IMG/VR virus record: IMGVR_UViG_3300009703_001171
Span: 1 to 21,204 of that record
Origin: a virus
Length of the DNA stretch: 21,204 nt
Strand: one strand, 5' to 3'
The translations under genes and the position numbers were made by a program. Positions 2-13,797 of this stretch are shown in pieces; within the stretch, counting starts at the first letter, position 1; each line of letters begins with the position of its first letter. Under the pieces are notes generated by a model. That model worked only from the letters and a program-made list of their open reading frames with translations, was not told the origin of the DNA and did not search any database.

Positions 2-355
2 GACCTAACCGGAAATAATGCGATATGTATTACAGGAGAGCTACCACATGAGCAAAGAGATCCACTATTACAAAAGATTAAAGATGGAGAAGCAGATATC
101 CTATATGGATCGCAAAGCATCTTCAGTGAGGGTATTTCAGTTAATGAGCTTAGTTGCCTCATTCTGGGTACTCCAATTAATAATGAGCCACTACTAATAC
201 AACTGATAGGAAGAGTTATTAGAAAGATGCCCGGCAAGGTACAGCCGGTAATCTTAGATATTCAATTAAAGGGTAATACCGCTGCAAGACAAGCTAAGTC
301 ACGTTCAGCAGTATATATCAAGCAAGGTTACGATATAAAGGTGGTGGCAGCATGA
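2..355 (+). CDS. uvsW: UvsW-like SF2 helicase, C-terminal fragment (5' end outside window)
   Basis: This is the last 117 codons of an open frame that enters from the left edge, so the start and the ATPase domain are not visible. The fragment is the second RecA-like lobe of a superfamily 2 helicase. Motif V appears as GSQSIFSEGISVNE and motif VI as QLIGRVIRK, with the Q-x-x-G-R-x-x-R arginine-finger pattern. The same arrangement is found in T4 UvsW (a G-V-F-S-T-G-I-S type motif V, then a G-R-V-L-R-K motif VI), a branch-migration helicase that unwinds R-loops and processes recombination intermediates. The nearby gp46/gp47 homologues support the recombination assignment. The stop overlaps the next start by four bases (ATGA), implying translational coupling. 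Another phage DEAD/DEAH helicase is possible because only one lobe is seen. Confidence 0.82.
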   Translation, partial: DLTGNNAICITGELPHEQRDPLLQKIKDGEADILYGSQSIFSEGISVNELSCLILGTPINNEPLLIQLIGRVIRKMPGKVQPVILDIQLKGNTAARQAKSRSAVYIKQGYDIKVVAA

Positions 356-744
356 TTATACTAGTTATGGGCCTGTCGGGGTCAGGTAAGACCACCCTAG
401 CTAAGAAGCTATCAGCATCCCTAGGGTGCCTCCATATAAACGCCGATGAAGTTCGCAATATGTATAATGACTGGGACTTTAGCCTCTCCGGCAGAGTTCG
501 ACAGGCCTCTAGGCTACACAGCCTAGCCCATGAGGTAGAAGGTGATGTAGTTGTAGACTTTATATGCCCCACCCACGCAGTACAGGAGATATTTAACGCG
601 GACTATACTATATGGATGGACACAGTTAGTAGCAGTAAATACAAAGATACAGATGAAGTATTTGAATCTCCGAAGTATTACGACCGGAGAGTAACAGAGT
701 GGGTAGACAGTACCCTATACACAATATTAAAGGACTTAAAATGA
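352..744 (+). CDS. Adenylylsulfate (APS) kinase-like P-loop kinase, short form
   Basis: A 130-residue P-loop protein. Walker A is G-L-S-G-S-G-K-T-T at residues 7-15, the exact form typical of APS kinases (CysC). The next CysC landmarks follow in order: N-A-D-E-V-R at 30-35 (compare D-G-D-N-V-R), a D-x-x-F-S stretch with arginines at 48, 50 and 54, V-V-V-D-F-I-C-P at 66-73 (compare A-F-I-S-P), and a late D-E-V-F-E-S-P (compare D-x-V-Y-E-A-P). CysC phosphorylates APS with ATP to give PAPS. The protein is much shorter than the roughly 200-residue bacterial enzyme, mainly through loss of the lid region between the last two landmarks. It is coupled by ATGA overlaps to the helicase upstream and a sulfotransferase-like gene downstream, which supports PAPS supply as its role. 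A related small-molecule or polynucleotide kinase cannot be excluded. Confidence 0.7.
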   Translation: MIILVMGLSGSGKTTLAKKLSASLGCLHINADEVRNMYNDWDFSLSGRVRQASRLHSLAHEVEGDVVVDFICPTHAVQEIFNADYTIWMDTVSSSKYKDTDEVFESPKYYDRRVTEWVDSTLYTILKDLK

Positions 745-1349
745 TACAAAATTCAGAATTTTATAGTACCCCCGAGCAAAAGTACTTGTTAATACACAAG
801 AATGCTTGTAGCACTATACGAGATAACCTTGCTAAGGAGTTCGCGGACACTGTAGCAGAAGGGAAGCAGGGGGAAGGAGTCTCCTGGGCTGTAGTTAGGG
901 ACCCCTACGATAGGTTTGTATCTTCCTTAGCATATGATATAGGGGTTCAGTACCCAGACGCTGTGTGGGGTTCTAAGGACCGCTTAGAACAAATAATCCA
1001 TGGTATTAACTATACTAAATATATAGTGAACAATGTGCCCCACGCTTCAAATTATTTAGGGAAGGCGCAGCATTCAGTACTACAGACTATATACTTGTTT
1101 GATAATAATATAGATATTCTGGTAGACCTCCAGGACTTAAAACACTTTATACCTATGCATTTCAAAGCCCCTACTGAAGCAAGTAACCTAGGGGTTTCAG
1201 ACAGGAAGCGGCTAATTAGTGATTTAATGGACGGCAGCCCTTTTTTAAAGGACCAGGTACACAGTTTACTAGAGGTAGATTATATTACTTTAACCTCTCT
1301 AAGGTCCCAGGGGCGAATGTGGAGCTGGGGTAGCGGGAAAATATGGTAG
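741..1349 (+). CDS. Small PAPS-dependent sulfotransferase-like protein
   Basis: A 202-residue protein. The ATG at 741 is preferred over one at 699 because it forms an ATGA overlap with the kinase stop and leaves the usual short N-terminus before the first motif. Residues 15-27 (Y-L-L-I-H-K-N-A-C-S-T-I-R) match the 5'-phosphosulfate-binding loop of Sulfotransfer_2-type enzymes (H-x-K-x-A-x-S/T-S/T). Residues 50-63 (A-V-V-R-D-P-Y-D-R-F-V-S-S-L) match the 3'-phosphate-binding motif R-D-P-x-x-R-x-x-S. The late V-D-Y-I-T-L resembles the Y-x-x-D-Y end seen in many family members. Such enzymes move sulfate from PAPS to a sugar or protein hydroxyl or amine. The acceptor cannot be read from the sequence. 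A PAPS-making kinase directly upstream strongly suggests a functional pair. Confidence 0.75.
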   Translation: MIQNSEFYSTPEQKYLLIHKNACSTIRDNLAKEFADTVAEGKQGEGVSWAVVRDPYDRFVSSLAYDIGVQYPDAVWGSKDRLEQIIHGINYTKYIVNNVPHASNYLGKAQHSVLQTIYLFDNNIDILVDLQDLKHFIPMHFKAPTEASNLGVSDRKRLISDLMDGSPFLKDQVHSLLEVDYITLTSLRSQGRMWSWGSGKIW

Positions 1350-6124: not shown

Positions 6125-6622
6125 CTACCAGCTTACTAAAACGTAGGGCGTAGTTCCAACTGGAGTTATGGCCCCTACAGGACCGTTACCGGAGCCCCCC
6201 GCACTGCCGGGGCTGTACCCGGCTGCGGTTCCGCCTCCTCCTCCGTTTACAGTAATAGTACCAAAAGAACTAGAGCCTCCGGAGCTTCCGCTGTTGCCGG
6301 AGTAAGCGGCGCTATTTCCGCTATTTCCGTTACTTCCTACCGTTACCGTCATATTACCATTCACTGCTTCTAGGGTGGAAGGCAATGCTGCTCCAACGCC
6401 TCCGCTGCCTCCAGACTTGGGGCCCCAGCCGTGAGTATTGCCTCCGCTGCCTCCGTTGCCAGCGGCCATAGCTACACTTACTGCCCCTACTCCTGCAGGC
6501 CTGTTCCAGATTCCTGTACTATTAAAGGCTTGGTGAGATCCTGTAGTGCCCCCACCTGCCGCAGCATTTTGAGTACTGCCGTCCGAGAACGTAATTCCCG
6601 TACTTGTTAATGTTACTGCCAT
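6125..6622 (-). CDS. Glycine-rich adhesin-like tail tip protein
   Basis: A 165-residue protein. The N-terminus (T-G-I-T-F-S-D-G-S-T-Q-N) is a common phage tail-fibre start. Residues 40-95 resemble the glycine-rich beta domain seen in receptor-binding tips: W-N-R-P-A-G-V-G-A-V-S-V, G-N-G-G-S-G-G, then M-T-V-T-V-G. Residues 110-155 are dominated by G, S and N with a G-G-G-G-G run. Such polyglycine segments form the distal loops of T-even gp38-type adhesins and of Gly_rich_2-like domains. Here it follows the S74 fibre by a TAATG overlap and precedes a chaperone, the expected position for a fibre-tip adhesin. It is clearly GC-richer than its neighbours, partly because of glycine codons. The receptor role is inferred. 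Confidence 0.72.
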   Translation of the reverse strand: MAVTLTSTGITFSDGSTQNAAAGGGTTGSHQAFNSTGIWNRPAGVGAVSVAMAAGNGGSGGNTHGWGPKSGGSGGVGAALPSTLEAVNGNMTVTVGSNGNSGNSAAYSGNSGSSGGSSSFGTITVNGGGGGTAAGYSPGSAGGSGNGPVGAITPVGTTPYVLVSW

Positions 6623-8499
6623 TATTTATCTCCTTTTAAGATGTTGATTTCTTCGCGAAGCTCTTTTACTGCTTCAATTAATAAAGCGTGAAGAGCGTCA
6701 TACTCAACTACTTTGAATTTTTCACTACCTTCTTCAAAAGGCATTTCTTTTTCTGTTACAGCACTAGGTAGAACTTTCTCTACGTCTTGCGCGATAACAC
6801 CAGCAGAACGTCTGCCGTCTTTCTTGTACGTAAACTCTACACCGTTTAACTGTGCTACTTTATCAAGTGCTCCAGTTACGTTTGCAACGCCCGTCTTTAA
6901 TTTCTCATCTGATACTGTACCAGAGTAAGCGATAACTTGACCGTCTGCATGTAAGTGCCCCGCGTTAGTGATCCTAACGCGTTCTCCGCCGTCTAACACA
7001 AATCTAAAGTTAGTAGCGTCTAGACCGATGTAGTCATTAATATCTCTGCCAATATGTGTAATACCGTCTCTTAAGTCTGGTTCAACTGAGAAAGTGGTTC
7101 CAGTTAGATCCATACCAGAGCCTGCCGAATACGTAGTATTCGTATTATTGTCTGCTGCCCAAACTGCTGTACCTGCTGAAGTATACTTTAAGAACTGACC
7201 CGCAGAACCGTTAGCAGGTATGTGGTTATTACCATTACCTGTAGGATGAGAATAATTATTAGCGTTAGTAGCAATACCGTCTAGTTTAGTATTATCTGCT
7301 GTAGTAAAGTTAACTTGCGTTAGTCCACCGTCGCCTACTACATAAGTAGTATTAGTATCAATAGAGCTAATAACACCTGTAGGAGAGATAGAAACGTTAG
7401 TACCTGCTGTTAGAGCAGCTACAACATTTGCAGTATCTGTAACATCCGCAGAAGCCTCTATACCGTCTAGTTTAGCGTTATCTGCTGTAGTAAAGTTGAT
7501 TTCTGTTAAACCACCGTTACCTACTGAATAAGTAGTATTGTTATCAGGAACTGTAACTATATCAGTAGTACCATCACCACGATTTAACGTAATAGTATGC
7601 CCACTAATAGTCATCGCATTAGCTGCAGAGCTTAGGGACTGATTAGATGTTTTAGCTGTTTTAGTTGCTAAAGAAGTAGTCAATGTAGAAGCGTAAGATG
7701 CGTCATCATTGATAGCAGCCGCTAGCTCATTAAGAGTATCTAAAGTACCTGGGGCTCCTCCGATTAAATCAGTAAGTTCAGTTTGTACGTATGCAGTTGT
7801 AGCTACCTGTGTAGTATTAGTATTCGCAACAGCTGTAGGAGCGGTAGGAGCACCAGTAAATGCAGGGCTAGCTAAAGGAGCTTTCGCTGCTAAAGCTGTG
7901 TCTAGTCCGTCTACGTTTGCTGTAGTGTGATTATGTGAATCATCAGCAACTGTAGCTATAATAGTAGCATTAGCACTTCCATCAAAAGATACAGAACCAG
8001 AAACGTCGCCTGATAACCCAATAGTTCTAGCAGTTGCTAAAGTAGTTGCTGTAGCAGAGTTACCTGTACAAGATCCTGCAGACCCTGAAGTATTGCCGGT
8101 AACATTACCTGTTACATTACCTGTAACATTGCCAGTTAAAGCACCTGTAAATGTAGTTGCGTGAATTTCAGCCCACTTCTTAGTAGAAGAGCCTAGATCG
8201 TATAGATTAGTTGCATCAGGGATAACATCAGAATTAACTTCACCGCCGAAGCTAACGTTATCTGTATTTGCATCACCTAATGTGATTGTGCCGCCGTTTG
8301 CGGTCATTGTGCCGGTGATAACTGCGTTACCCCCCACATATAAGTTTTCTTGTGTAGAAATACCACCAGCTACCCTTAGGGCACCTGTAGTAGAACTAGT
8401 AGCGCTAGTAGCGCTAGCTACTGAAACGTCAGCAGTACTATCAATAGTTATAGTACTTCCTGAGTGAGAATCAATAGTATTTACTTTTAAAGTTGACAT
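6622..8499 (-). CDS. Tail fibre with C-terminal S74 autocleaving chaperone (large)
   Basis: A 625-residue fibre. The N-terminus (M-S-T-L-K-V-N-T-I-D-S, then G-A-L-R-V-A-G-G-I-S-T-Q) is a module also found alone in the 79-residue gene at 9767. The shaft has low-complexity beta repeats: three tandem G-N-V-T units near 125-137, and a repeated G-G-L-T-x-x-N-F-T-T-A-D-N-x-K-L-D-G-I block. The C-terminus is a peptidase S74 intramolecular chaperone. Ser530 and Lys535 have the Ser-x4-Lys spacing of the endosialidase chaperone dyad, followed by L-N-G-V-E-F, the R-S-A-G-V-I-A-Q-D-V-E motif and a terminal coiled coil. Cleavage before Ser530 would free a 96-residue chaperone after trimer folding. The C-terminal 170 residues are paralogous to the fibre at 12889. 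Confidence 0.9.
   Translation of the reverse strand: MSTLKVNTIDSHSGSTITIDSTADVSVASATSATSSTTGALRVAGGISTQENLYVGGNAVITGTMTANGGTITLGDANTDNVSFGGEVNSDVIPDATNLYDLGSSTKKWAEIHATTFTGALTGNVTGNVTGNVTGNTSGSAGSCTGNSATATTLATARTIGLSGDVSGSVSFDGSANATIIATVADDSHNHTTANVDGLDTALAAKAPLASPAFTGAPTAPTAVANTNTTQVATTAYVQTELTDLIGGAPGTLDTLNELAAAINDDASYASTLTTSLATKTAKTSNQSLSSAANAMTISGHTITLNRGDGTTDIVTVPDNNTTYSVGNGGLTEINFTTADNAKLDGIEASADVTDTANVVAALTAGTNVSISPTGVISSIDTNTTYVVGDGGLTQVNFTTADNTKLDGIATNANNYSHPTGNGNNHIPANGSAGQFLKYTSAGTAVWAADNNTNTTYSAGSGMDLTGTTFSVEPDLRDGITHIGRDINDYIGLDATNFRFVLDGGERVRITNAGHLHADGQVIAYSGTVSDEKLKTGVANVTGALDKVAQLNGVEFTYKKDGRRSAGVIAQDVEKVLPSAVTEKEMPFEEGSEKFKVVEYDALHALLIEAVKELREEINILKGDK
7276..7533. repeat. 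Pair of diverged direct repeats in fibre shaft
   Basis: Segments 7276-7347 and 7462-7533 are highly similar over about 72 bases, offset by 186 bases. Both encode the G-G-L-T-x-x-N-F-T-T-A-D-N-x-K-L-D-G-I shaft block of the S74 fibre. They are in frame, so recombination between them would change shaft length by 62 residues. Confidence 0.8.
8095..8130. repeat. Three tandem 12-base units in fibre gene
   Basis: Three consecutive 12-base units (form RCCKGTWACATT) encode tandem G-N-V-T. They are in frame and could expand or contract by slippage without breaking the fibre. Confidence 0.7.
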
Positions 8500-9766: not shown

Positions 9767-10006
9767 TTAGAAAGACCCGCCATCTAAAACGCTGGAGTCT
9801 AATGAAGCCTCTAGCGTTCCAGTTACGGTGGCGTTACCACTAACGTTTAAATTATTTTGAGTGGATATACCCCCCGCTACTCTAAGTGCTCCTGTTGTCG
9901 CACTAGAAGAGGCGGTGGTAGACTCAATATTAAAGTCAGAAGTGCTGTCCACGTCAATTTTAGTTCCGGTGTACGAATCTAAGTTATTTACTTGTAAAGT
10001 TGACAT
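9767..10006 (-). CDS. Stand-alone fibre N-terminal module (79 residues)
   Basis: A 79-residue protein matching the first 70 residues of the S74 fibre at 6622: M-S-T-L-Q-V-N-N-L-D-S at the start, then T-T-G-A-L-R-V-A-G-G-I-S-T-Q-N-N-L and G-N-A-T-V-T-G-T-L. It then stops with L-D-G-G-S-F, the same C-terminal tail as the 642- and 124-residue proteins upstream. It is the first gene after a perfect promoter with an operator-like dyad, and has AGAGGA before the ATG. It may be a fibre remnant left by recombination, or a functional cap or plug that competes for the same attachment site as the full fibre. The intact ribosome-binding site, promoter and shared C-terminal motif favour a real product. 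Confidence 0.72.
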   Translation of the reverse strand: MSTLQVNNLDSYTGTKIDVDSTSDFNIESTTASSSATTGALRVAGGISTQNNLNVSGNATVTGTLEASLDSSVLDGGSF

Positions 10007-10098: not shown

Positions 10099-12027
10099 TT
10101 AGAACGTACCTCCGTCCAACTCGTTAGACCATTCAGGAGCTGTTGCACCAGAATTCATCTTCATAAATTGACCGCCTGTACCTTTACTAAGCTTAGAGAT
10201 TGTTGTAGCGCCTGAAGCATACATGATATCGCCAGAACTAAAGCTAGAAATACCTGTTCCTCCGTAATCTACGCCTACTGTATCACCCTGCCATGTCCCA
10301 GAAGCAATTGTACCTAATGTAGTAATTGCTGATTGTCCAGACCATGTAGTATCAATTTGTACTGAGTTAGCATTAGCTGTAATACCTGTTCCGCCTATAA
10401 CGTCAAGTGTATTACCAGTCTTAGTCATACCAGAGCCAGCAGTAATTTGTCCAGCACCAGAGAATTGGGCGTAGCTTAGAGAAGTTGTACCAACAGTAAT
10501 TGAACCATCGTTTGAACAAACCCAACCAGAGTCAGCATTTGTAGTACCTTCTTCAACAAAACAGAATGAACCCCCAGAAACTTCAGCAGTCTCATCGTAG
10601 TCTGTAGCTCTTGTTGGAGCACCAGAAGCAGCTACTACATAAATACCGTTTTCAGAAGCAGTAGCTTGGTTCTTTAATAAGATACGATCGCCTGTAGCAA
10701 GAGTAATTCCATCAACTGTAGAATTATTAGCAAATGCAGAAGATAATGTACCGCTAGCTGTAGTAGCTACACGTACTGAATCTTTAACATCTAGACCAGT
10801 TTTAACTGCGTCTACATAAGACTTAGTTGCTGCATCTTGAGCCTGTGAAGGATCTGCAACATTAGTAATTCTGTTTGAACCCATTGTAACAGTTTGTGAA
10901 GCAGAAACTGCTAAACCGTCTAATGTGCCAACTGAAGTAACGTTAGTTTGGGCTGCTGTTTGCAATGTACCCGTTACGTTAGTAGCTGTGATATCACCAG
11001 AACCTAAGTTAATGTCTTTATTAGCATCTACAACTAGAGCTTTAGAAGCTACTGCAGTACCTGCTGTTGCTCCGTCTAATACGTTGATCTCACCAGAGTC
11101 AGCAGTAACAAGTACGCCGCCTAGTTTCAAACCATTAGTACCGTCGTGAGAAGCTACATCAAAGTCGTTAGCGCCGTCCGCAATAGTAGCATCACCACCA
11201 ACTGTAAGACCTGTTAAAGTACCTACTGTAGTAATATTACCTTGAGAGGCAGTAGCGATAGAACCCGTAATGTTAGTAGCAGTGATATCACCAGTACCTA
11301 AGTTGATGTCCTTATTTGCGTCTACAACTAGCGCTCTAGAAGCTGTTGCTGTACCCGCCGTAACACCTAGTTCAGCTGCTTGAACTTTATCAGAACCAAT
11401 AGCTGTAACACCTGCAGAACTCATAGTAACGTCTCCAGACATAGCTACTGACTCCCAGTCTACGCCATCCGCAATCATCATATTGCCAGAAGTTGCTGTA
11501 TCAGTACCAACGTTATCTAGCTCTGCTAAAGAGTTAGAACCTAAGTACTTAGCTGCAATTTTCTTATATCCCGAAGCTGAATTGTCATAAATCAATACAT
11601 AGTCGTTATCGCCATCTGGGTTAGCTGCTAAAGCAGTTTGTCCAGTGATGACATCAGTATGTACCATTGCTTTTTGTACAGCATTAGAACCAATTGTCGC
11701 AGTTAATGTTGCGTCAGTTAAGTTTGTTAATGTTGCTGAGCCAGATAAGTCTCCACCTAAAGTGATCGTAGGATCTGCTGTAAGTGCGAAGTCTAAAGTG
11801 TTATCTAAATCATCATAGGTTACCGCAATACCAGTTTCTGTATTGCCAGAGACCATTGCTCCAACTGCATCTGCGATTCCTTCAGAACCGCCAATTACAG
11901 TTACGTTACTACCACTAGTACCAATAAATAGATTATTGGAATTTTCAGAATAGGCTAATTCGCCTTCTGCTAAGCTGGTAGGTGTTGCAGTAGTAGTACT
12001 GCGTTTAATTTTAATTACGTTTGCCAT
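10099..12027 (-). CDS. Large repetitive tail-fibre protein
   Basis: A 642-residue virion protein. The N-terminus (K-I-K-R-S-T-T-T, then S-L-A-E-G-E-L-A-Y-S-E-N-S-N-N-L-F-I-G) is a variant of the fibre attachment module found in the 185- and 193-residue proteins. The centre has two long internal repeats, each reading A-L-V-V-D-A-N-K-D-I-N-L-G followed by G-D-I-T-A-T-N and T-V/S-V-G-T-L. Downstream is an A-A-T-K-S-Y-V-D segment with R-I-L-L-K-N-Q and E-N-G-I-Y-V-V, a combination frequent in tail fibres of large and marine phages. It ends in E-L-D-G-G-T-F with no S74 chaperone. The start follows the previous stop directly. Low-complexity A/T/G/S composition fits a trimeric beta shaft. Which receptor or partner it binds is not visible. 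Confidence 0.82.
   Translation of the reverse strand: MANVIKIKRSTTTATPTSLAEGELAYSENSNNLFIGTSGSNVTVIGGSEGIADAVGAMVSGNTETGIAVTYDDLDNTLDFALTADPTITLGGDLSGSATLTNLTDATLTATIGSNAVQKAMVHTDVITGQTALAANPDGDNDYVLIYDNSASGYKKIAAKYLGSNSLAELDNVGTDTATSGNMMIADGVDWESVAMSGDVTMSSAGVTAIGSDKVQAAELGVTAGTATASRALVVDANKDINLGTGDITATNITGSIATASQGNITTVGTLTGLTVGGDATIADGANDFDVASHDGTNGLKLGGVLVTADSGEINVLDGATAGTAVASKALVVDANKDINLGSGDITATNVTGTLQTAAQTNVTSVGTLDGLAVSASQTVTMGSNRITNVADPSQAQDAATKSYVDAVKTGLDVKDSVRVATTASGTLSSAFANNSTVDGITLATGDRILLKNQATASENGIYVVAASGAPTRATDYDETAEVSGGSFCFVEEGTTNADSGWVCSNDGSITVGTTSLSYAQFSGAGQITAGSGMTKTGNTLDVIGGTGITANANSVQIDTTWSGQSAITTLGTIASGTWQGDTVGVDYGGTGISSFSSGDIMYASGATTISKLSKGTGGQFMKMNSGATAPEWSNELDGGTF
10911..11366. 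repeat. Two long in-frame repeats within the 642-residue fibre gene
   Basis: Segments of roughly 10911-11070 and 11208-11366 are diverged direct repeats about 297 bases apart. Each encodes a block of about 50 residues containing A-L-V-V-D-A-N-K-D-I-N-L-G. The 297-base offset is a whole number of codons, so unequal recombination would add or remove 99 residues. Edges are approximate. Confidence 0.75.
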
Positions 12028-12402
12028 TTAAAAATACCCTCCATTAAGAGTAACATCAGAATACTCTGCAGTATCTGAGCTTTCCGATAATTGAGCTGCT
12101 ATAGTTATTTCTTCCCACGTAGTGTTCCGATAAACCATTAACTTATCATCAGTTGTGTTATACCACAAGTCACCTTCTTCGAGATTACTATCTCCGGTTG
12201 GTGCTGCAGCTTGTACGAATTGTTGATCCGCGATTTGATGCAAAGCATCTTGAATATTCGTAGCAGTAATAGGGCCTACAGGAGTAAATGATATGTCCCC
12301 TGCACCCCCAATTGCTACTGAATTGGTTGTTATTACTACCTCATCCGAGGTTACTGTTATATTATTGCCGGTGGTTTCTGTTACCGATACTACTACACTC
12401 AT
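12028..12402 (-). CDS. Small fibre-associated protein with L-N-G-G-Y-F tail
   Basis: A 124-residue protein of unknown precise function. Residues 75-98 (L-E-E-G-D-L-W-Y-N-T-T-D-D-K-L-M-V-Y, then W-E-E-I) carry the E-G-D-L-W-Y/F-x-T motif common in phage tail-fibre and neck-fibre proteins; the 302-residue fibre has the same motif as G-E-V-W-Y-D-T-T-N-T-L-F-K-V-Y. An I-x-D-A-L-H-Q-I-A segment near 49-58 is also typical of fibre attachment regions. It ends in L-N-G-G-Y-F, matching the C-termini of the next two upstream-driven fibre proteins. The start overlaps the preceding stop (ATGA) and its stop abuts the next ATG, so it is co-translated with both. Confidence 0.75.
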   Translation of the reverse strand: MSVVVSVTETTGNNITVTSDEVVITTNSVAIGGAGDISFTPVGPITATNIQDALHQIADQQFVQAAAPTGDSNLEEGDLWYNTTDDKLMVYRNTTWEEITIAAQLSESSDTAEYSDVTLNGGYF

Positions 12403-12888: not shown

Positions 12889-13797
12889 TTAACCCTTCTG
12901 TAATTCTTTAATCTCTAGTGCTTGTTTTTCTACTACATCTTTGAGCTCTTTTATAGCTTCAATATATAAAGAGTGTAAAGCATCGTACTCTACTGTCTTA
13001 AAAACTTCTTCTGTCCCAGTATGTAGGGGTAAGCTTCTCTCTACTACTGCTTGGGGTAGGACTTTCTCTACATCTTGGGCTATCACCCCTGCAGATCTTA
13101 CACCACTGTCCTTACGTGTAAACTCTACTCCATTAAGTTGAGATACTTTGTCTAGAGCGCTGTCTACCACGGATATTGCAGACTTTAAGTTTTTATCTGA
13201 TACAGTTGCTGAGTACGCCACTACGCTACCATCACAGTGTATATCTCCGTCATTCTCCATTCTGAAACGCTCTCCACCATCTAAGAAGAACCCAAAATTG
13301 GCAGTATTAAGAGCAATATAGTCGTTGGAGTCCCTACCTATATGAGTAATCCCGTCTCTTAGGTCTGCCTCAATAGAGATGGTGGTGCCCACCATATCAA
13401 GCCCTGCACCTGCTGAATAAGTAGTATTAGTATCCGTAGGAGTCGCCCAAGTAAAAGACCCGTCCGCGTCTGAGCGCAGATATTGAGAAGTAGTACCATT
13501 TCCAGCAACATTTAATTTAGAGGCAGTAACTGAGTTATCTAGAATCTTGCTTGTAGTAACTGAGTTACTAGTTAAATCTGCAGCTACTATATCACCGGAC
13601 TTTATCTCCTCAAAGGCGCTACCGTTATACACCTTGAATAGGGTATTAGTAGTATCATACCAAACTTCCCCCAATACCGGGGAAGTTGGTGCAGTTGCAC
13701 TACTATTACTACTTTTAATAGCAGTCAGTACGTTATTAATATCCGCCCTAGTTGCGGGGAAAGATTGGTTTGCTATGTTGTAATCATGTATTGCCAT
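12889..13797 (-). CDS. Tail fibre with C-terminal S74 autocleaving chaperone (short)
   Basis: A 302-residue fibre. The N-terminus (M-A-I-H-D-Y-N-I-A-N-Q-S-F) and the G-E-V-W-Y-D-T-T motif near 43-50 fit a tail-attachment domain. A linker rich in S and T carries S-V-T-T-S-K-I-L-D-N-S-V-T-A-S-K-L. From about residue 130 it parallels the 625-residue fibre: R-D-G-I-T-H-I-G-R-D, L-D-G-G-E-R, then the S74 domain. Ser200 and Lys205 form the Ser-x4-Lys dyad, followed by L-N-G-V-E-F, R-S-A-G-V-I-A-Q-D-V-E-K-V-L-P, and a coiled-coil end (E-L-K-D-V-V-E-K-Q-A-L-E). Self-cleavage would leave a 199-residue fibre and a 103-residue chaperone. It is the last gene of the lambda-like tail unit, one base after the J-distal gene, with an AGGA site. 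Confidence 0.9.
   Translation of the reverse strand: MAIHDYNIANQSFPATRADINNVLTAIKSSNSSATAPTSPVLGEVWYDTTNTLFKVYNGSAFEEIKSGDIVAADLTSNSVTTSKILDNSVTASKLNVAGNGTTSQYLRSDADGSFTWATPTDTNTTYSAGAGLDMVGTTISIEADLRDGITHIGRDSNDYIALNTANFGFFLDGGERFRMENDGDIHCDGSVVAYSATVSDKNLKSAISVVDSALDKVSQLNGVEFTRKDSGVRSAGVIAQDVEKVLPQAVVERSLPLHTGTEEVFKTVEYDALHSLYIEAIKELKDVVEKQALEIKELQKG

Follow-up and report, generated by a model that had tools for sequence, protein, structure and literature searches.

Why would a marine phage keep, flanked on both sides by genes for DNA replication, a kinase gene and a sulfotransferase-like gene that are coupled to each other? The question is raised by the virus record analysed here (the window, that is, the whole stretch of 21.2 kb), in which the kinase open reading frame (352-744, 130 aa, P0001) and the sulfotransferase open reading frame (741-1349, 202 aa, P0002) are both intact on the plus strand. 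A sequence-only reading had proposed that the two genes make and use PAPS as a self-contained sulfation system, and herein this proposal is followed through the proteins, their neighbours in related phages, and the genomes in which relatives of the kinase are found.

The gene pair and its two proteins

The pair is set tightly among its neighbours. On its 5' side the window opens with the C-terminus of a UvsW-like helicase (2-355, plus strand). This fragment shares 72-96% identity with the same region of the helicase in relatives, and it matches the end of the complete helicase open reading frame in the relative L007. The helicase stop overlaps the kinase start in an ATGA (352-355), and the kinase stop overlaps the sulfotransferase start in the same way (741-744). 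On the 3' side, and still on the plus strand, a small conserved phage gene (1422-1841, phrog_4258 by profile match and conserved in relatives) bounds the slot that holds the pair, and it is followed by a gp32-like single-strand DNA binding protein (SSB; 1810-2451, likewise recognised by profile match and in relatives), which is the conserved anchor of the operon, and then by SbcD, SbcC and a PDDEXK/RusA-type protein. With the helicase on one side and these genes on the other, the setting is therefore a replication/recombination operon, and the earlier coordinates, ATGA coupling and operon assignment were all right. Elsewhere in the window, three tail-fibre-type open reading frames lie in succession on the minus strand (9767-10006, 10099-12027 and 12028-12402) and carry similar short end motifs (LDGGSF, LDGGTF and LNGGYF); the open reading frames 6622-8499 and 12889-13797 (minus strand) have a Peptidase_S74-like C-terminus in common (GVIAQDVEKVLP), and other open reading frames of the block have paralogous N-termini in common.

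As a single sequence, P0001 matches mixed P-loop families, with PF01583 (APS_kinase) above the gathering score (24.0 bits, threshold 21.1), and the same family matches 52 of 53 relatives of P0001 at E<=0.001. When a profile of the 53 members was compared with solved structures, APS kinases scored best (2yvu at 1.4e-12, together with 2ofw, 3cr7, 1d6j and 3uie), and the alignment to them starts at the P-loop and extends to include the F(I/V)(S/C)P strand, whereas other kinases align mostly around the P-loop and nicotinamide riboside kinase reaches 0.006, far below the APS kinases. Among the NCBIfam models, those of adenylyl-sulfate kinases are the most widely matched by the relatives (PRK05541 in 53/53, apsK in 51/53), and 49/53 are matched as well by a model for archaeal (d)CMP kinase. 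The best NCBIfam match of P0001 itself is PRK05541, not apsK, and the cut-off of the apsK equivalog TIGR00455 is not reached (20.8 vs 138.7 bits). Moreover, the predicted model of a fused Pelagibacter relative (L135, pLDDT 94.8), whose kinase part is 46% identical to P0001 and which served as its stand-in, matched APS kinases and PAPS synthetases at probability 1.00; 47 of its top 50 fold matches belong to APS kinases, to PAPS synthetases, or to ATP sulfurylases that contain an APS-kinase-like domain, and the only intruder from outside the family is gluconate kinase. The profile, the NCBIfam models and the fold of the relative thus favour an APS kinase over a nucleoside or polynucleotide kinase, the alternative that the sequence-only reading had named.

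The active-site residues can be compared with CysC of Mycobacterium tuberculosis (Mtb), where APS is held by Arg483, Phe492, Arg497 and Phe576, Asp480 is close to the 3'-OH, and Asp478 contacts the Mg water (PMC4373884). In P0001 the alignment places the P-loop GLSGSGKT at residues 7-14 (370-393), the segment NADEVR, equivalent of DGDxxR, at residues 30-35 (439-456), the segment DWDFS..GR..Q at residues 40-51 (469-504), and the strand end FICP, equivalent of FISP, at residues 70-73 (559-570), all on the plus strand. Accordingly R35, F43, R48 and D32 stand for Arg483, Phe492, Arg497 and Asp480, which makes this set of APS-binding side chains complete, and R35, F43 and R48 are invariant in 53/53 relatives; Y97 (640-642, plus strand), in a shortened lid, is the equivalent of Phe576. 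Asp478, the Mg-water ligand, is replaced by N30, and the lid segment with Lys562/Arg559 of CysC is absent, about 22 lid residues being missing in all aligned relatives. The P-loop and substrate landmarks claimed earlier are thus present and the Arg/Phe/Arg/Asp set of the pocket is kept, but the pocket is not intact at the Mg-water ligand and in the lid. Because the profile, the fold of the relative and the APS-pocket residues have to be set against N30 and the short lid, P0001 is, as judged from its sequence, a true but reduced and divergent member of the APS-kinase family, and presumably a catalytically active one. Its relatives are found in five deposited phages, in more than 500 stretches of viral contigs, and in 167 stretches of cellular contigs, mainly from SAR86 and Pelagibacterales.

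For P0002, both PAPS-binding motifs that had been claimed are found on the plus strand: a 5'-PSB loop, IHKNACST, at residues 18-25 (792-815), whose H19 and K20 are invariant in the 33 aligned members of its family, and a 3'-PB segment, RDPYDRFVS, from R53 to S61 (897-923). This R-x7-S pair consists of R53, which is invariant, and S61, which is not kept in all 33 members. His111 (1071-1073, plus strand) is invariant in the same alignment and may be the catalytic base, so that the family keeps the IHKN loop, the 3'-PB arginine, His111 and a D-L segment. The sequence-only signal is weak. P0002 passes no Pfam sulfotransferase threshold, its match to Sulfotransfer_2 (E 0.044, 14.3 bits) being below the 22-bit threshold, and it has a weak match, at 0.0025, to the Gal-3-O-sulfotransferase phrog_3347; across its family, Sulfotransfer_2 is found at E<=0.01 in 12 of 33 members (best 0.0015) and is the sole family that recurs beyond two of them. 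Sequence searches with P0002 or its family against the PDB and deposited phages gave nothing useful, and three family members had no match among 50,697 deposited phage records. The predicted model of P0002 (pLDDT 86, pTM 0.84) matches viral sulfotransferases with a best E of 3e-6 (probability 1.00, TM 0.58); against the PDB its top matches are mostly sulfotransferases but not significant (best E 0.22, TM about 0.25). Altogether we are moderately sure in predicting that P0002 is a small viral sulfotransferase.

The company of the kinase in phages and cells

The phage group to which the window belongs comprises 75 loci with the SSB region in common, L006 and L007 included. In these loci the slot between the helicase and the small gene of phrog_4258 is a cargo site whose contents vary among relatives, and in the majority of the loci where it can be seen it holds nothing. 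In ten loci (L006, L007, L246, L254, L255, L257, L258, L265, L266 and L308) it holds a P0002-type sulfotransferase alone; in L242 it is occupied by a 2OG-Fe oxygenase-like protein (L242:989-1741), with inserts of like size in L240, L243, L244 and L298; and in the window it holds the kinase together with the sulfotransferase. A search of 50 relative records found the kinase in L002 and L264 only, where it overlaps a sulfotransferase of a different type, away from the cargo slot and close to the RusA-type gene; with the window counted, all three kinases therefore lie next to a sulfotransferase. The three kinases cluster in the tree (support 84/86), and their sulfotransferases are of two types. 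Taken together, the adjacency, the grouping of the kinases and the two types of sulfotransferase point to a kinase that is functionally coupled to a sulfotransferase; the sulfotransferase, for its part, does not need the kinase. In fact, P0002-type sulfotransferases are mostly without a kinase, as seen in the ten close relatives and in the fetched flanks of 65 distant loci, and no kinase was found elsewhere in the sulfotransferase-only relatives, including records of 50, 36, 25 and 15 kb. The expected co-occurrence thus holds in one direction, for the kinases of the three group members; it fails for the sulfotransferase, and also for most other kinases, which are paired with a nucleotidyltransferase.

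This usual partner is an NMNAT-like nucleotidyltransferase of about 130 aa, which accompanies the kinase at 143 of 168 loci, for the most part as the next gene downstream; examples from the viral and SAR86/SAR11 loci are the nucleotidyltransferase L035:3615-4037 and the kinase-nucleotidyltransferase fusion L135:5001-5768, and such fusions also occur in deposited phage members of phrog_10255 and in some Pelagibacter proteins. Its PDB matches are NMNATs (1f9a at 7e-11), and in Pfam CTP_transf_like matches 35 of 36 and ATP-sulfurylase, weakly, 18 of 36. An A4-type nucleotidyltransferase was not found in the whole 21.2 kb window record, nor was a nucleotidyltransferase found elsewhere in the kinase-only virus records.

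Sulfotransferases of other kinds adjoin the kinase as well. They are a Sulfotransfer_2 protein in L021-L023, a Sulfotransfer_3 protein in 12 cellular loci, mostly of SAR86, and a CurM-like sulfotransferase in L036, while the neighbour in L015, L024 and L042 can be called sulfotransferase-like from its PSB-type motif only. The kinases concerned fall on different branches of the kinase tree. Most viral kinase neighbours overall are not sulfotransferases. Among 107 random other genes of the kinase loci no sulfotransferase family with two members was seen, which sets a maximum of one per family and yields no rate, since this background check displays just the largest families. Of the other neighbours, Nol-like carbamoyltransferases are among the commonest (7/126; L033, L036, L075 and other viral loci). 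Oxygenases of the 2OG-Fe(II) or Asp-hydroxylase type recur beside the sulfotransferase-kinase pairs of L015, L024, L042, L264 and L002, and a route that hydroxylates and then sulfates is conceivable, although marine phages commonly carry such oxygenases.

The gene content of the genomes that bear the kinase tells for what PAPS may be used. In 43 kinase-bearing cellular genomes, CysD is found in 1/43, Sat in 2/43 and Sulfotransfer_3 in 38/43; for SAR11 in particular, Sulfotransfer_3 occurs in 29 of 40 kinase-positive vs 9 of 40 kinase-negative genomes (Fisher p 1.4e-5, uncorrected for phylogeny or completeness). The sole kinase-bearing genome with CysD (G042, locus L154) is without the nucleotidyltransferase, which is lacking in two of the six cellular genomes tested. 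This pattern and the counts fit a model in which the nucleotidyltransferase makes APS, the kinase turns it into PAPS, and sulfotransferases use the PAPS. On the viral side, a Sulfotransfer_2 match is present in 10 of 50 virus records, a kinase-bearing set that also includes L007 without a kinase, and Sulfotransfer_1 in 8 of 50 of a near-identical set, with L264 replacing L007; PAPS reductase above the cut-off was found in none of the 50 kinase-bearing virus records, a set outside which the window record stands. Since the SAR86 and SAR11 genomes with the kinase are nearly always without CysD and Sat and usually with sulfotransferases, the kinase and the nucleotidyltransferase may together be a compact PAPS synthase. 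We put forward tentatively, as a possibility that we hold somewhat in doubt, that this synthase has gone unrecognised and leads from ATP and sulfate through APS to PAPS, and that in SAR86, SAR11 and those marine phages without CysDN and Sat it supplies sulfation instead of sulfate reduction; the window phage would then have the kinase half only, coupled to its own sulfotransferase. The NMNAT-like enzyme could also make another adenylylated compound instead of APS.

A probable sulfation cassette and its alternatives

For the pair in the window, we consider it probable that it works as a two-gene sulfation cassette in the cargo slot of the replication operon, where host APS would be turned into PAPS by the phage kinase and used by the phage sulfotransferase. 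This reading builds on the family membership of P0001 and its conserved APS-binding residues, on the sulfotransferase-type loops of P0002 and the viral matches of its model, on the gene coupling, and on the recurrent adjacency with non-orthologous sulfotransferases. P0001 would use ATP to phosphorylate APS at its 3'-OH, with PAPS as the product, and P0002 would bind the PAPS and move its sulfuryl group to an acceptor hydroxyl. A carbohydrate would be the likeliest acceptor, and it is favoured because the weak family signals of P0002 are Sulfotransfer_2 and Gal-3-O-sulfotransferase; perhaps, then, a glycan is sulfated, though a protein, a small molecule and other acceptors together weigh somewhat more. 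No ATP-sulfurylase-type gene was found among the replication-side proteins scanned, and the record may be a fragment. With no APS-forming gene of the types searched in the record, APS would have to be supplied by the host, or else by a stretch of the phage genome that is not sequenced; on present data the cassette is therefore not self-contained, and in this point the sequence-only reading is not supported. A SUP05-type sulfur-oxidising host as supplier of APS is not supported, DsrC, the sole marker tried, being found in 0/50 relative records. By carrying the kinase, the phage would increase the supply of a donor of which its host has little, and relatives that have only the sulfotransferase would draw on the PAPS of their hosts.

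The two genes might instead be unrelated cargo that happens to share a variable slot, with the sulfotransferase using host PAPS and the kinase serving another need. The slot contents that differ among relatives, the ten close relatives with a sulfotransferase and no kinase in the record, and the viral kinase neighbours that are mostly not sulfotransferases would all agree with such a coincidence. We nevertheless regard it as rather unlikely: every kinase of the group has a sulfotransferase next to it, with two sites and two kinds of sulfotransferase involved, the adjacency recurs on other kinase branches, and the 107 random genes of the same loci hold no sulfotransferase family with two members. 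It also seems unlikely, and to a greater degree, that the kinase acts on another nucleotide conjugate and that the second enzyme transfers a non-sulfate group from a 3'-phosphonucleotide donor. There is a precedent in Campylobacter Cj1415, which was reportedly an APS kinase by annotation until it was assayed as a cytidine diphosphoramidate kinase, and P0001 likewise has PRK05541 as best NCBIfam match with apsK far below cut-off, and a family whose usual partner is NMNAT-like and not a clear ATP sulfurylase. Yet the Phe that stacks on the adenine is invariant, as are the two Arg that bind the phosphosulfate; several types of sulfotransferase are found as partners, and no other phosphoramidate-pathway gene was recognised among the listed neighbour families.

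The partner nucleotidyltransferase, nearest to NMNAT and in some proteins fused to the kinase, would also suit a role of the family in nucleotide or NAD salvage, where a kinase and an NMNAT-like enzyme would work together as in NadR and the sulfotransferase neighbour would be incidental; but the window phage is without such a nucleotidyltransferase and the profile places APS kinases far above nicotinamide riboside kinase, and of all the readings we find this one the least credible. Hardly more so is the usual view of viral cysC, by which the kinase would be an auxiliary gene for assimilatory sulfate reduction. It is the interpretation published for short viral CysC proteins (PMC9529941); against it stand the missing PAPS reductase in the 50 kinase-bearing virus records, the kinase-bearing cellular genomes that are nearly always without CysD, and, in the window, a partner that is a sulfotransferase.

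Likeness to known systems

With CysC and the APS-kinase domain of PAPS synthetases (PF01583; Mtb CysC, human PAPSS1), P0001 has in common the kinase fold, as modelled for its relative, the P-loop and the D..R motif, the GFS-like Phe, both APS-binding arginines and the F(I/V)(S/C)P strand; it differs in its length of 130 aa, in a lid about 22 residues shorter, in Asn for Asp478, and in INAD for LDGD. The 'kinase' phrog_10255 of Stenotrophomonas, Xanthomonas and Clavibacter phages is homologous to P0001 in its N-terminal half (5.5e-30), but the phage members seen are kinase-nucleotidyltransferase fusions, whereas P0001 is the kinase half only and stands beside a sulfotransferase. As for P0002, it has the PAPS loops in common with known phage sulfotransferases (phrog_3347, and the 'sulfotransferase family' of cyanophage and uncultured Caudovirales) and would resemble them in fold by its predicted model, and it differs from them in being below the Pfam cut-offs and in having family members unmatched among deposited phages.

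Short APS-kinase-like proteins, with 109-135 residues modelled, have been described from marine virus contigs as viral CysC auxiliary genes and read as sulfate-reduction genes, and the parts of that paper considered here mention no sulfotransferase or nucleotidyltransferase partner (PMC9529941). Judged by length and description, these proteins and P0001 probably belong to the same family. Viral CysC proteins (PMC9529941) and viral sulfotransferases are already known, each singly. A phage kinase-sulfotransferase cassette was not found reported in the open literature, the scope of our search; nor do descriptions appear to exist there of the two being coupled in one operon, of this kinase standing without the nucleotidyltransferase that usually accompanies it, or of a link to sulfation over sulfate reduction. 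Viral cysC is usually read as sulfate reduction, and here the partner of the kinase is a sulfotransferase; moreover, relatives of the kinase are accompanied by a nucleotidyltransferase in streamlined bacteria of the ocean, most of which are without known APS routes. If confirmed, this would hint that SAR11, SAR86 and marine phages sulfate surface molecules, virion molecules or small molecules, and would provide a small and directly testable set of PAPS-making enzymes.

Another likeness is to the rhizobial NodPQ-NodH system, in which NodQ has an APS-kinase part, NodH is a carbohydrate sulfotransferase, and NodPQ also makes APS. There, as in the phage pair, a dedicated donor-making enzyme is linked to a sulfotransferase. 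The phage cassette differs from it in having no APS-forming gene in view, in a kinase that is short and lid-reduced, and in a sulfotransferase that is small and divergent.
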